DNA of 64,000 bases. It comes from Chloroflexota bacterium. GTDB lineage: Bacteria > Chloroflexota > Anaerolineae > Anaerolineales > Villigracilaceae. How positions within the stretch are numbered: the stretch's first letter is position 1; every line of letters starts with the position of its first letter. Below, one piece after another: positions 31,430 through 35,738 of this stretch. A program made the position numbers and the translations under genes. The notes under the pieces are model-generated. The model had not been told where the DNA came from, ran no database searches, and was given only the letters and a program-made list of their open reading frames with translations. The stretch is taken from positions 62,001-126,000 of the forward strand of contig JACRLB010000018.1 of assembly GCA_016235445.1 (NCBI GenBank). The letters are read 5' to 3'.

Positions 31430-33511
31430 TTACTCTTCCTTCTTGGCTTCCATTTCCTTCTTGTGCGCTTCGATGATCGGGCCCGTGATGTGGGACGGAA
31501 CCGTATCGTAGTGGTCGAAGTCCATCGCGAAGTAGCCACGGCCACCGGTAATGGAGCGGAGCTGGGTTGTATAACGCAACACTTCCGCCAGCGGCACATG
31601 CGCCACAATGACGGTGTTGCCGAATTCCGAATCCGTCCCTTGCACGCGGCCGCGGCGGGTATTGAGATCGCTCATTACATCGCCCATGTTCGCATCGGGA
31701 ACCGTCACACGGATGGTCATGATCGGCTCGAACAAAACAGGGCCAGCCTCCTGCACGGCAAGCTTGAAGGCTTCGCGCCCTGCAATTTCGAACGCCAAAG
31801 GCTTGGAATCCACTTCATGCTCTTTACCGTCATACACAATCACTTTGACATTGCTCATCGGGTAGCCCGCAAACGCGCCACGCTCCATCGTTGCCTTAAT
31901 GCCTTTTTCGATTGGGGGCAGATAGGATTTCGACAGGTTCATACCAACGAGTTCATCTGCAAATTCAAAGTCGGATGTGGGCAGGGGTTCGATGCGAAGG
32001 TGTACTTCGCCAAATTGACCTGAGCCGCCGCTTTGCTTCTTGTGGCGATATTGACCGCTGGCTTTGCGTGTAATTCCTTCGCGGTAGGGAACACGCGGTT
32101 CATGCGTTGCAAGACCTACCTGGAACTTGGCCTGGGCGCGGTGTAACGCTACATCGATGTGCTGGTCGCCCAAGCCCTTCAAAACGGTCTCGTGCGTGAT
32201 GGGATCATTTTCCCATGCGAGGGTCACATCTTCTTCACAGAGCTTGGTCAAAGTTGGGGATATTTTAGCGGCATCTGCCTGGCTCTTGGGAGTGATCGCC
32301 ACGCGATAGAGCGCCGCAGGGAATTTCGGTTTTTCAACCGTGAGTGGATGTCCCTTTTCGCAGAAAGTATCACCTGTGGCGGTTGCATTTAATTTGGAAA
32401 CAGCCGCAATATCACCAGCGTGGATCACCTTTGCCGCAATCGCTTCCTTGCCGCGCTGAAAATGCAAACCAGACACGCGTTCATCTGCGCTTTTGTTTTG
32501 ATTCCAGACATGTGCATCCGCCTGCATAACACCTGAGTACACCCGGAAATAAGTCATCCGGCCAACAAAAGGATCGGCGGTGGTCTTCCAAACATACGCA
32601 CACAAAGGTTCAGTATCGGATGGTTTCAATCCCTCTTCGCCGCTTTTGCCCTGGGCCACACGCTTGGGAGCGTTCAACGGGGAAGGCATCAAATCAATGA
32701 TGTCGTTGAGCAGGGCAATTGCGCCAACCTCATGCCCGCCGGCGGCGCAGAAGACAGGGACAAATGCCCCAGCGTAGACCACATCTTCCAGTCCACGCAC
32801 CATCTCTGCATCAGAGAGGGAGCCGTTTTCGAGATATTTTTCCATCAACTCATCTTCGCCCTCGGCGGCGGCTTCCACGAGCGCAAAGTGGGCTTTATCC
32901 GCCGCATCTTTTAAGTCCGCAGGGATATCGCCAGTAGTCCTGCCATCGCCGATATAAGCCTTCATACCGATGATGTCCACGACACCTTTGAAATTTTGTT
33001 TCTCGCCAATCGGCAAATGGACTTTAATGGCGCGCTTGCCGCGCGCGCGTACGAATTCTTCTATGGCCTCATAGGTTTTTTCAAAATCAGCGTTATCGCG
33101 ATCCATTTTGTTGATGACGAAAAATCGCGGCAGGTTGAATTCGTCGGCATAACGCCAGGCAAGTTCAGTGCCGACCTCGATGCCTGAAACCGCATCCACT
33201 AAAAGTATCGCGCCATCCGCGACACTCAAGGCAGAGATCATCTCGCCTGTAAAATCAGTGAAGCCGGGCGCGTCGATAACGTTTATTTTGTGATCGCGGT
33301 GCTCTATGGGAATTACGCTTGAATAGATGGATATTTTTCGACGGTGTTCCTCGTCATCATAGTCCGAAACCGTCGTCCCGTCCTCGACCTTGCCGAGGCG
33401 GGTCGTTGCCCCCGTGGCATGAAGAAATGCCTCCGCCAACATCGTCTTGCCCGCACCTCCGTGCGAGACAAGCGCAACGTTGCGAAGAAACTCGGTGGTA
33501 TACTCTTTCAT
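31430..33511 (-). CDS. Elongation factor G-like GTPase (EF-G2 type)
   Basis: 693 residues from ATG 33511 (AGGAAGG upstream); an open frame to 33682 adds 57 unrelated residues. G1 is SHGGAGKTMLAEA instead of the AHIDAGKTT of canonical EF-G, G3 is VIDAPGFTDF and G4 VINKMDRDNADF. Domains II-V follow (FEPIMTIRVTVPDANMGDVMSDLNTRRGRVQG is cut here to its parts: domain V with NTRRGRVQG). The altered G1 and the missing switch-I sequence place it in the EF-G-like subgroup, a paralogue of the true translocase whose role is not settled. It is divergent from the thioredoxin-like gene. Confidence 0.85.
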   Translation of the reverse strand: MKEYTTEFLRNVALVSHGGAGKTMLAEAFLHATGATTRLGKVEDGTTVSDYDDEEHRRKISIYSSVIPIEHRDHKINVIDAPGFTDFTGEMISALSVADGAILLVDAVSGIEVGTELAWRYADEFNLPRFFVINKMDRDNADFEKTYEAIEEFVRARGKRAIKVHLPIGEKQNFKGVVDIIGMKAYIGDGRTTGDIPADLKDAADKAHFALVEAAAEGEDELMEKYLENGSLSDAEMVRGLEDVVYAGAFVPVFCAAGGHEVGAIALLNDIIDLMPSPLNAPKRVAQGKSGEEGLKPSDTEPLCAYVWKTTADPFVGRMTYFRVYSGVMQADAHVWNQNKSADERVSGLHFQRGKEAIAAKVIHAGDIAAVSKLNATATGDTFCEKGHPLTVEKPKFPAALYRVAITPKSQADAAKISPTLTKLCEEDVTLAWENDPITHETVLKGLGDQHIDVALHRAQAKFQVGLATHEPRVPYREGITRKASGQYRHKKQSGGSGQFGEVHLRIEPLPTSDFEFADELVGMNLSKSYLPPIEKGIKATMERGAFAGYPMSNVKVIVYDGKEHEVDSKPLAFEIAGREAFKLAVQEAGPVLFEPIMTIRVTVPDANMGDVMSDLNTRRGRVQGTDSEFGNTVIVAHVPLAEVLRYTTQLRSITGGRGYFAMDFDHYDTVPSHITGPIIEAHKKEMEAKKEE

Positions 33512-33665
33512 CGAAAAAGCCCTTCCTATAAGATGTAGGATGTAAAGCGTTGCACGATTGTAAAAGAACTCAATTGAATTGTCAAAGTGTGAAGCGTCAC
33601 GGATAAAACATGACATTGCAAACCCTGCCGTTTTCAAGTAAAAAAATTTCAAAACCGAGGGCGCT

Positions 33666-34166
33666 ATGAATTTAATAGCCAATCAATATTCCTTCCTCAC
33701 GGTTGCTGTTGGGTTTACCCTGCTGGCAGGCTTCATCCTGCTTACCAACAAACCCAAATGGAAAGACTACCTGGCCTTTGGCGTCATCCTGCTGGGGCTT
33801 GTCAGCGCGTGGAGCGTCCTGCATCCGCGCCAGACCCCGCTGATGGACGATGCGAAAAAGGTGCAGGAATTGATCGGCTCAGGCACGCCAGTCCTGCTCG
33901 AATTTCAATCCCCATTCTGAATTAGTTGTACCGTAACCAGGCCCGTCGTGGACGAGCTCGAAAAAGAAATCAATAACGAAATCAGCATCGGCAAAAGAAT
34001 TCACATCATCCGCCTCAACATTCAGGAAGAGGTGGGCATGGAACTTGCGCCTGTCTATGGGTTTGAATTCACCCCCACCTTTATATTCTTCGATGCGCAA
34101 GGCAACGAACTCTGGCGCATGATCGGCGAATTCGACCCGCAACTCGTGCGCGACTCGATGCAATGA
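33666..34166 (+). CDS. Membrane-anchored thioredoxin-like protein with in-frame TGA (candidate selenoprotein, UxxC)
   Basis: The frame opens with ATG 33666 (GAGG upstream), has two N-terminal hydrophobic segments (residues 8-26 and 36-52), and then a thioredoxin-like strand PVLLEFQSPF. Codon 85 is TGA (33918-33920). The same frame continues I-S-C-T-V-T-R-P-V-V-D-E-L-E-K and on to a normal thioredoxin end with cis-Pro in GFEFTPTFIFFDAQGNELWRM, stopping at 34166. The TGA thus stands for the first Cys of a CxxC site (UISC), the classic selenocysteine position. A GG-starting 9-nt loop closed by CCA/TGG lies at 33937-33951, 20 nt after TGA, where bacterial SECIS loops sit. Otherwise it is a nonsense mutation. 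The stop overlaps the next gene by ATGA. Confidence 0.6.
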
Positions 34167-34732
34167 ATCTTCTCCGCCGCCTGAAATTCAACCTCACCTA
34201 CTTTGGCAAAGCGCCCTGGGATAGCGGCATCAGCCCGCCAGAACTTTATGATTTCATCACCAGCCACCCCGCCGCCCGCGCCATAGACATTGGCTGTGGC
34301 ACGGGCACAAACATCATCACACTTGCAAATGCAGGCTGGCAGGTGACAGGTTTCGACTTTGCTTCACGCGCCGTACAAATCGCAAAACGCAAATTGAAAC
34401 ACGCCGGCATTCAGGCAGATGTTTTTACCGACGACGCCATCCAAATGAAAAAAGTGCGCGGCCCATTCGAACTCGCCCTCGACCTCGGCTGTTTCCACGG
34501 CATTCAAAACAAAGCGGATTATCTGACTCAACTGACCCACATCCTCGTCCCCAACGGATTCTGGCTCATGTACGGATTCTTCAAACCCGCCCCGCTTCTC
34601 CCCCCGCCCGGGCTTGCTCCCTCTGACGTTGACATGATCTCAGCCCACGGCTTAACCCTCCTCTCCCGCACAGACGGCTTCGACAAACGCGAACGCCCCT
34701 CGGCATGGTTCCTGTATCAAAAACACTCGTGA
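34163..34732 (+). CDS. SAM-dependent methyltransferase
   Basis: 189 residues of a class I methyltransferase (PF13649/PF08241-like). Motif I is AIDIGCGTGTNIITLA (residues 40-55), motif II about VTGFDFASRAV, and ALDLGCFHGI follows as the post-motif strand. The length fits a small-molecule methyltransferase such as thiopurine/tellurite or halide types, but substrate is unknown. The ATG overlaps the stop of the thioredoxin-like gene by 4 bp, so the two are translationally coupled, meaning that readthrough or translation of that upstream frame matters for this gene too. Confidence 0.82.
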   Translation: MNLLRRLKFNLTYFGKAPWDSGISPPELYDFITSHPAARAIDIGCGTGTNIITLANAGWQVTGFDFASRAVQIAKRKLKHAGIQADVFTDDAIQMKKVRGPFELALDLGCFHGIQNKADYLTQLTHILVPNGFWLMYGFFKPAPLLPPPGLAPSDVDMISAHGLTLLSRTDGFDKRERPSAWFLYQKHS

Positions 34733-34747
34733 AATCCCTACGGGATT

Positions 34748-34816
34748 TTTTATTCATCCTTCATCCTTCATCATTCACCATTCATCTTTCATCATTCATC
34801 CTTCATCCCTCATCCT
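34748..34816. repeat. TTCATCC near-tandem heptamer repeat
   Basis: About nine units of TTCATCC/TTCATCA in a row between the methyltransferase and phosphatase-family genes. The same words are inside the HDAC-like and hemW genes. Confidence 0.7.
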
Positions 34817-34823
34817 TTCCCCC

Positions 34824-35738
34824 ATGAAAATCCTCTTCCTCTTTCTCGACGGCATCGGCCTCGGCGAAGACAACCCTGAGACGAATCCCTTCGTGCGCGC
34901 AAACATGCCTTATTTGGAATCTCTGCTTGGCGGCAAAAAACTGACGGCCAGCGCCGCCCCCTACGAAAATGAACATCTTTCATTAATGGCGGCAGACCCC
35001 AACCTCGGAGTCAAAGGATTACCCCAATCCGCCACGGGGCAGGCCGTTCTGCTCACGGGCATCAACATCCCCGCCGAGTTGGGCTATCACTACGGGCCGA
35101 AACCAAACCCCGAAGTTGCGCAATATTTGGATGGAGCAACCATATTTTCCAAAACAGTCAAAGCGGGTAAAAAAGCCGCCTTGCTAAATGCCTATCCCCC
35201 ACGCTACTTTGACGGAATCGATTCTGGCAAACGGCTTTACTCCGCAATTCCGCAGGCAGTGACAAATGCGGGGCTCCCCCTTTTCACACAGGATGATTTG
35301 TATTCAGGCCGCGCACTCTCCGCCGATTTCACAGGCCAAGGCTGGCGTGAATTTATGAAATTATCCGATTCGCCTTTATACCAATCAGAAGAAGCAGGCG
35401 CAAAACTCGCGGCGCTCGCCAAACAATATGATTTCTCCTTCTTCGAATATTGGGCCAGCGACTATGCAGGCCACAAACAGGATATGCCCTCGGCAACCCG
35501 TCAACTGGAGACATTCGATTCAGTGTTGAAAGGACTGCTCGAAGCGTGGCAGGCCGAAGAAGGTCTGATCGTGCTCACATCCGACCACGGCAACATGGAA
35601 GACTTATCCACACGCAAGCACACATCCGCACACGTTCCACTTTTATTATTTGGGGATAAAACAAATCAAACCGAATTTAAAACCATCACCGATCTTGCAG
35701 GCATTGCCCCCGCGATCAACTCACTCCTAAAAATATAA
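34824..35738 (+). CDS. Alkaline-phosphatase-superfamily metalloenzyme
   Basis: 304 residues. It begins LFLFLDGIGLGEDNPETNPF with the first metal-binding Asp, has the SATGQAVLLTG nucleophile loop (Thr 70 likely), EYWASDYAGHKQDM with Asp and His ligands, and TSDHGNMEDLSTRKHTSAHVP with the last Asp-His pair and His. The order matches the phosphopentomutase / iPGM-like branch of the metalloenzyme family (PF01676), though it is shorter than those. Substrate unknown. Its 3' end overlaps the convergent HEAT-repeat gene by 12 bp. Confidence 0.8.
   Translation: MKILFLFLDGIGLGEDNPETNPFVRANMPYLESLLGGKKLTASAAPYENEHLSLMAADPNLGVKGLPQSATGQAVLLTGINIPAELGYHYGPKPNPEVAQYLDGATIFSKTVKAGKKAALLNAYPPRYFDGIDSGKRLYSAIPQAVTNAGLPLFTQDDLYSGRALSADFTGQGWREFMKLSDSPLYQSEEAGAKLAALAKQYDFSFFEYWASDYAGHKQDMPSATRQLETFDSVLKGLLEAWQAEEGLIVLTSDHGNMEDLSTRKHTSAHVPLLLFGDKTNQTEFKTITDLAGIAPAINSLLKI

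Follow-up and report, generated by a model that had tools for sequence, protein, structure and literature searches.

Thioredoxin-fold proteins with selenocysteine (Sec) in the first position of the active-site motif (UxxC) are an established kind of selenoprotein. In the accessible part of a 2026 review, a Sec-containing thioredoxin (Trx, PF00085, UxxC) is listed as experimentally verified and a Sec-containing thiol:disulfide interchange protein (PF13098, UxxC) as a predicted family, and SaoT (NF040730) and HUIPC (NF047660) are also thioredoxin-like UxxC proteins (PMC13188914). The bSECIS model given in this review has a stem of 4–16 bp and a loop of 3–9 nt with a G in its first two positions, lies 16–37 nt from the UGA, and has a minimum free energy of at most −7.5 kcal/mol (PMC13188914). 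For Chloroflexi, the accessible part of a 2006 survey records three selenoproteins, of three families (PMC1794560).

The window analyzed here is a 64,000-nucleotide stretch of the genome of a Chloroflexota bacterium (completeness 98.28%). On its forward strand, a candidate selenoprotein gene occupies positions 33666–34166 and comprises 166 codons and a TGA stop. The frame from 33666 to 34163 contains a single internal TGA, at codon 85 (33918–33920), which we read as Sec in the first position of the motif U-I-S-C. The original prediction described this 166-codon frame and placed its one TGA where the first Cys of a thioredoxin CxxC would stand; the reading frame bears out the former, and the latter agrees with the orthologs, which have only TGA or Cys at this codon. 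Read with translation table 11, the open reading frame stops at residue 84, directly ahead of the active site, and so the enzyme is likely to be truncated or missed in annotation. Judging from the sequence comparisons described below, the in-frame TGA almost certainly encodes an active-site Sec in a thioredoxin-like enzyme that is anchored to the membrane.

When the TGA is translated as an amino acid, the best Pfam match of the protein is Thioredoxin_2 (PF13098; 35.1 bits, cut-off 27), and Thioredoxin (PF00085) scores 30.0 bits (cut-off 23.5). AlphaFold2 predicts two membrane-length helices (residues 9–26 and 32–52) and a thioredoxin domain (about residues 57–166), with a pLDDT of 92.4 and a pTM of 0.85. 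Thioredoxins top both the Foldseek and the VIA lists (best VIA Z 12.5 over 101 residues, rmsd 1.7), and the leading PDB matches by sequence are also thioredoxins. A 63-row alignment with TGA read as Cys shows no variation at residues 85 and 88 or at the cis-Pro (P137). Membership of the thioredoxin fold is thus supported by the Pfam scores, the predicted fold, the CxxC/UxxC motif, and the cis-Pro, and the thioredoxin end that had been noted after the TGA is indeed retained. None of 11 NCBIfam matches with E-values up to 1 exceeded its cut-off: the thioredoxin equivalog TIGR01068 scored 37.0 bits against a cut-off of 96.8, and SaoT (NF040730) and HUIPC (NF047660) were not among the 11, a set from which HMMER filters drop weak matches. 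In the Pfam, NCBIfam, relatives, PHROGs, and plasmid searches, the query was one residue too long because the true stop had been translated as Cys; this residue was trimmed for the ortholog-locus search and left out of the 63-row alignment.

The protein shares its fold, and Sec as the first residue of the motif, with the Sec-containing thioredoxin as that family is described in the accessible part of PMC13188914; unlike it, the present family has two membrane helices ahead of the domain. Near orthologs carry FQSP[YF]UxxC, whereas canonical thioredoxins carry FWAPWCGPC. By family description, the protein can also be likened to the Sec-containing thiol:disulfide interchange protein, since its own best Pfam match is PF13098 and its motif is UxxC, and it resembles SaoT and HUIPC in being thioredoxin-like with UxxC, its own motif being F-U-I-S-C (PMC13188914, in part). 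The Lys+Arg count is 2.48 between the helices and 0.24 at the N terminus, which by the positive-inside rule suggests that the thioredoxin domain probably lies outside; the value of 1.87 past the second helix counts against this topology. One DsbD_TM protein is present in the genome (66.4 bits), and it could carry electrons across the membrane.

The protein was searched against its own genome and 200 relatives, and at least 103 ortholog copies were found in at least 100 of these 201 genomes. We searched 108 loci, of which 107 matched (L115 did not); canonical CGPC thioredoxins (L114, L116, and L117) and a partial copy (L119) were set aside before the 103 were counted, and partial contigs L128–L131 were left out of the analysis. 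Some of the 103 copies are cut by contig ends, and the set may lack orthologs that are weaker or incomplete. The relatives that carry a name (11 loci) are recorded as Anaerolineales, Anaerolinea, or Chloroflexi. At codon 85, 79 copies have TGA, that of the window included, and 24 have Cys (TGC in 17, TGT in 7), with no other codon in any copy; the TGA is therefore conserved among relatives rather than peculiar to this genome. At an E-value limit of 1e-20, a profile of the family matched 89 of 298 genomes of the class and 37 of 301 of the phylum; some of the relatives recur in each of these two sets. Among distant family rows (40 loci fetched, five canonical CGPC rows set aside), all 41 have TGA (28) or Cys (13) at codon 85, a ratio that is not a census because the 40 regions were chosen partly by a stop flag. 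In three distant loci (L200, L201, and one of the two copies at L199), TGA members have UxxS, Ser having replaced the second Cys. Searches with the protein gave no plasmid match at E up to 1e-10 and no PHROGs match at E up to 0.001.

Downstream of the TGA, a bSECIS-like hairpin occupies positions 33940–33958 on the forward strand, with a 5' arm at 33940–33947, a GTG triloop at 33948–33950, and a 3' arm at 33951–33958; in the window's gene it has seven pairs and one C-A mismatch. The original prediction had favored a GG-containing loop 20 nt past the TGA, but the conserved element is this hairpin, whose triloop begins 27 nt past the TGA. The 57 nt from the TGA onward align without gaps across the TGA copies, in which the triloop is GUG (41 copies), GUU (31), or GUC (7). 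At least five of seven pairs are formed in all 79 TGA copies, as opposed to 1 of 24 Cys copies, and in 27 of 28 distant TGA rows, as opposed to 5 of 13 distant Cys rows. Pairing reaches 87.8% at the hairpin and 19–39% in slid controls, and the Cys copies pair at the level of shuffles (44.3% versus 43.0%). The third base of codon 94 is C in every one of the 79 TGA copies (GTC, GCC, or ATC) and in 6 of the 24 Cys copies. The triloop taken alone says little, because GUN encodes Val and a GTN triloop occurs in 19 of the 24 Cys copies.

The hairpin covaries on most measures. Two adjacent pairs show compensatory changes (CG 56, UA 15, and GC 2 at one; GC 62 and AU 13 at the next). Double-changed cells number 35 against 8.5 in shuffles, and the covariation score is 0.206 against 0.108; neither value was reached in any of 500 shuffles, which leave relatedness in place. 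The number of pairs changed on both sides showed no excess (3 versus 3.0, with 442 of 500 shuffles as high). The geometry agrees with the published bSECIS rules, which we scripted: a 3-nt GUG loop beginning with G, a stem of 4 bp, a mismatch, and 3 bp, and a spacing of 27 nt. The model allows any spacing from 16 to 37 nt, whereas this family keeps one fixed offset (PMC13188914). The energy of the window's own copy, −7.0 kcal/mol, misses the −7.5 kcal/mol limit; over a 33-nt stretch, 54 of the 79 TGA copies fall within the limit and 25 miss it, and 6 of the 24 Cys copies fall within it. In single-sequence folding, the hairpin was no more stable than shuffled sequence (z 0.05), an Rfam scan of the region gave sub-threshold matches only, and RNAalifold returned no consensus pairs for the 79 TGA copies and, for the Cys copies, one weak helix unrelated to the hairpin. 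We attribute the RNAalifold result for the TGA copies to frequent mismatches (24, 25, and 13 of 77 distinct rows are unpaired at three of the eight pairs), although it still counts as a negative result.

The original prediction found no selA, selB, or selC in the window, and all of these genes, together with selD, lie elsewhere in the genome. SelA scored 558 bits (cut-off 267.9), SelB 339.5 (cut-off 242.25), and SelD 348.6 (cut-off 125), and a tRNA-Sec with a score of 70.3 (gathering score 47) has the anticodon TCA according to ARAGORN. SelB and tRNA-Sec, whose absence would have refuted the original prediction, are thus both present. The selD gene itself (contig C24, L126) has one in-frame TGA, at codon 21, followed by a 7-bp stem (GACGCAG-GTT-CTGCGTC) whose triloop begins 33 nt past that TGA and which resembles the hairpin described here. 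A formate dehydrogenase alpha subunit gene (contig C21, L156) also has one in-frame TGA. Three further matches to our hairpin model in this genome (L149, L151, and L153) lie in no convincing frame.

Of the 76 genomes with a TGA copy, 75 have SelA or SelB above cut-off. In the exception (G122), selD has an in-frame TGA of its own, and so the lack of SelA and SelB probably reflects assembly gaps. SelA, SelB, and tRNA-Sec occur together in 55 of the 76 when tRNA-Sec matches weaker than an E-value of 1e-11 (about 60 bits) are counted as absent, which is stricter than the gathering score passed by 170 of the 201 genomes. For these co-occurrence counts, the SelA status of nine unlisted genomes was assigned by elimination. 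SelB is above cut-off in 167 of the 201 and SelA in 170. Co-occurrence with the machinery is by itself weak evidence, because most of the genomes have SelA or SelB; these genes are still present in 22 of the 24 Cys genomes. Both are missing from 1 of the 76 TGA genomes and from 18 of the 125 others (Fisher p 0.002, a value that ignores kinship and takes TGA status from the matches listed).

Our preferred explanation, to which we assign a probability of about 0.93, is that the ribosome would read the UGA at codon 85 as Sec delivered by SelB and tRNA-Sec, with the stem-loop 27 nt downstream directing insertion. The two N-terminal helices would anchor the product, with the predicted thioredoxin domain exposed at the outer membrane surface of the cell. 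Sec85 and Cys88 would form the catalytic pair, most likely of a thiol/selenol-disulfide oxidoreductase acting on extracytoplasmic substrates, and re-reduction could plausibly proceed through the DsbD/CcdA-type membrane protein of this genome. On the basis of the conserved TGA, its pairing with Cys, the hairpin, and the machinery, the selenoprotein appears to be real by most comparative tests, and we infer Sec insertion itself, the topology, and the likely redox direction, partner, and substrate.

One alternative is a reassignment of UGA to Trp or Cys in this lineage, in favor of which relatives have Cys at the TGA site. However, Trp never stands at codon 85, a tRNA-Sec with anticodon TCA is present, and the hairpin tracks the TGA. 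In addition, the 103 copies terminate at TGA (62), TAA (32), or TAG (9), with the window's own gene among those ending in TGA, which indicates that TGA is also an ordinary stop in these genomes. We therefore regard reassignment as extremely unlikely. A pseudogene, a nonsense mutation, or a sequencing error, each of which could leave one stop in an otherwise intact frame, deserves still less credence. The stop is common to 79 copies in 76 genomes, which makes a local sequencing error implausible, and no second in-frame stop occurs between match start and terminator in any of the 103 copies. Selection after the TGA equals selection before it: the median dN/dS is 0.141 upstream and 0.139 downstream (269 and 312 usable pairs, respectively, of 319 pairs of TGA copies).

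At any UGA, part of the products terminates. Readthrough at codon 85 might accordingly be real but regulatory or independent of SelB (by a near-cognate tRNA), so that most of the product would be a membrane stub of 84 residues, and the only moderate stability of the hairpin would suit such an arrangement. The pairing of Sec with Cys, the presence of the machinery, and the likeness of the hairpin to that of the genome's selD all point away from this account as a whole, and we consider it very unlikely.

The distribution of TGA and Cys across the family indicates repeated switching. We built a quick maximum-likelihood tree of the 103 rows, unrooted and with residue 85 masked, on which the TGA/Cys label changes at least eight times, five of these changes being forced by well-supported branches; the mean for shuffled labels is 21.9. 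A single clade of Cys rows was rejected (p-AU 7e-58) in a test for which the group was set by codon beforehand but which was run after the tree had been seen and which involves long branches. The Cys copies of the window's own genus fall at three positions, on branches of moderate support. One Cys copy (L085:2431–2487, minus strand) has a TGC codon followed by a complete hairpin that scores 43.8 bits against the hairpin model, an apparent relic of Sec, and another (L065) scores 37.1 bits.

Because the TGA copies have one hairpin in one place, we infer a single origin of Sec and several conversions from Sec to Cys. The opposite account, repeated gains of Sec by Cys proteins, draws on the fact that the tree is unrooted and the counts of changes carry no direction, and also on precedent: according to the accessible part of the 2026 review, selenoproteins evolved mostly from Cys to Sec, and the reverse replacement is rare in bacteria, with FdhA and SelD as the main documented cases (PMC13188914). 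We nevertheless think repeated gains rather unlikely, as a hairpin at the same offset in 79 of 79 near and 27 of 28 distant TGA copies would be hard to gain repeatedly, the Cys copy at L085 keeps a complete hairpin, and midpoint rooting puts TGA copies on the deepest branches.

The gene is followed on the same strand by a SAM-dependent methyltransferase gene (34163–34732), for which no NCBIfam cut-off was reached among the best 25 matches. As predicted, the two are joined through ATGA, the stop at 34164–34166 overlapping the methyltransferase ATG. Within flanks of limited length, the methyltransferase is downstream in 74 of the 103 loci, a metalloenzyme/phosphoglycerate-mutase-like gene (34824–35738, forward strand) is downstream in 75, and an EF-G-like GTPase gene (31430–33682, reverse strand) is the divergent neighbor in 90. 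The listed start of the EF-G-like gene overlaps the selenoprotein gene; translation more likely begins at an internal ATG near 33510. A promoter-like TTGACA-17-TACAAT (33557–33585, minus strand) lies ahead of the EF-G-like gene; one such match was found and 0.9 would be expected. Past the methyltransferase gene, and still ahead of the gene that follows it, lies a tandem array (34753–34817) of 9.3 copies of the 7-base unit TTCATCC.

Since the two genes overlap at ATGA, translation of the methyltransferase may, by coupling, need ribosomes that have passed UGA85, and UGA85 might in this way gate the operon by selenium. This idea is unlikely to be correct: among loci that have the methyltransferase, the ATGA overlap occurs in 37 of 60 with TGA but also in 7 of 14 with Cys, and the methyltransferase was not found in 29 of the 103 loci within their limited flanks. 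Were such a gate to exist, it would tie the methyltransferase, together with a redox protein acting outside the cytoplasm, to selenium supply.

A second thioredoxin-fold selenoprotein candidate lies elsewhere in the genome (L148:1321–1857, minus strand; contig C14, about 53,278). It has a lipoprotein-like N terminus, the motif FFRFT-U-GTC, a PF00085 score of 38.5 bits, and a hairpin with a GTT triloop at the same 27-nt offset as in the window's gene. Homologs are found at L083:4528, L084:4737, and L082:3636, and in three relatives a TGA homolog of the second candidate lies downstream of a Cys version of the window's gene.

The original prediction spoke of a new selenoprotein. The comparative tests support the word selenoprotein; the word new applies only at the level of a subfamily, as Sec-containing UxxC thioredoxins are already an established kind (PMC13188914, in part). 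The family is not described in the accessible parts of PMC13188914, PMC12013277, PMC9312934, PMC5330540, and PMC1794560, relevant terms do not occur in PMC5029168, and "Chloroflex" does not occur in the main text of PMC13188914. A description is thus absent from those parts of the open-access selenoprotein literature that we searched. The family is apparently an undescribed subfamily of the known Sec-containing thioredoxins.

The redox enzyme is present in at least 100 of the 201 genomes formed by the window's own and its relatives. The hairpin with a triloop starting in GU, which also occurs in selD and in the second candidate, provides a SECIS pattern that can be searched for in this lineage. 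Near relatives that have Sec or Cys at one and the same site constitute a natural experiment, and these matched pairs make the benefit of Sec directly testable.
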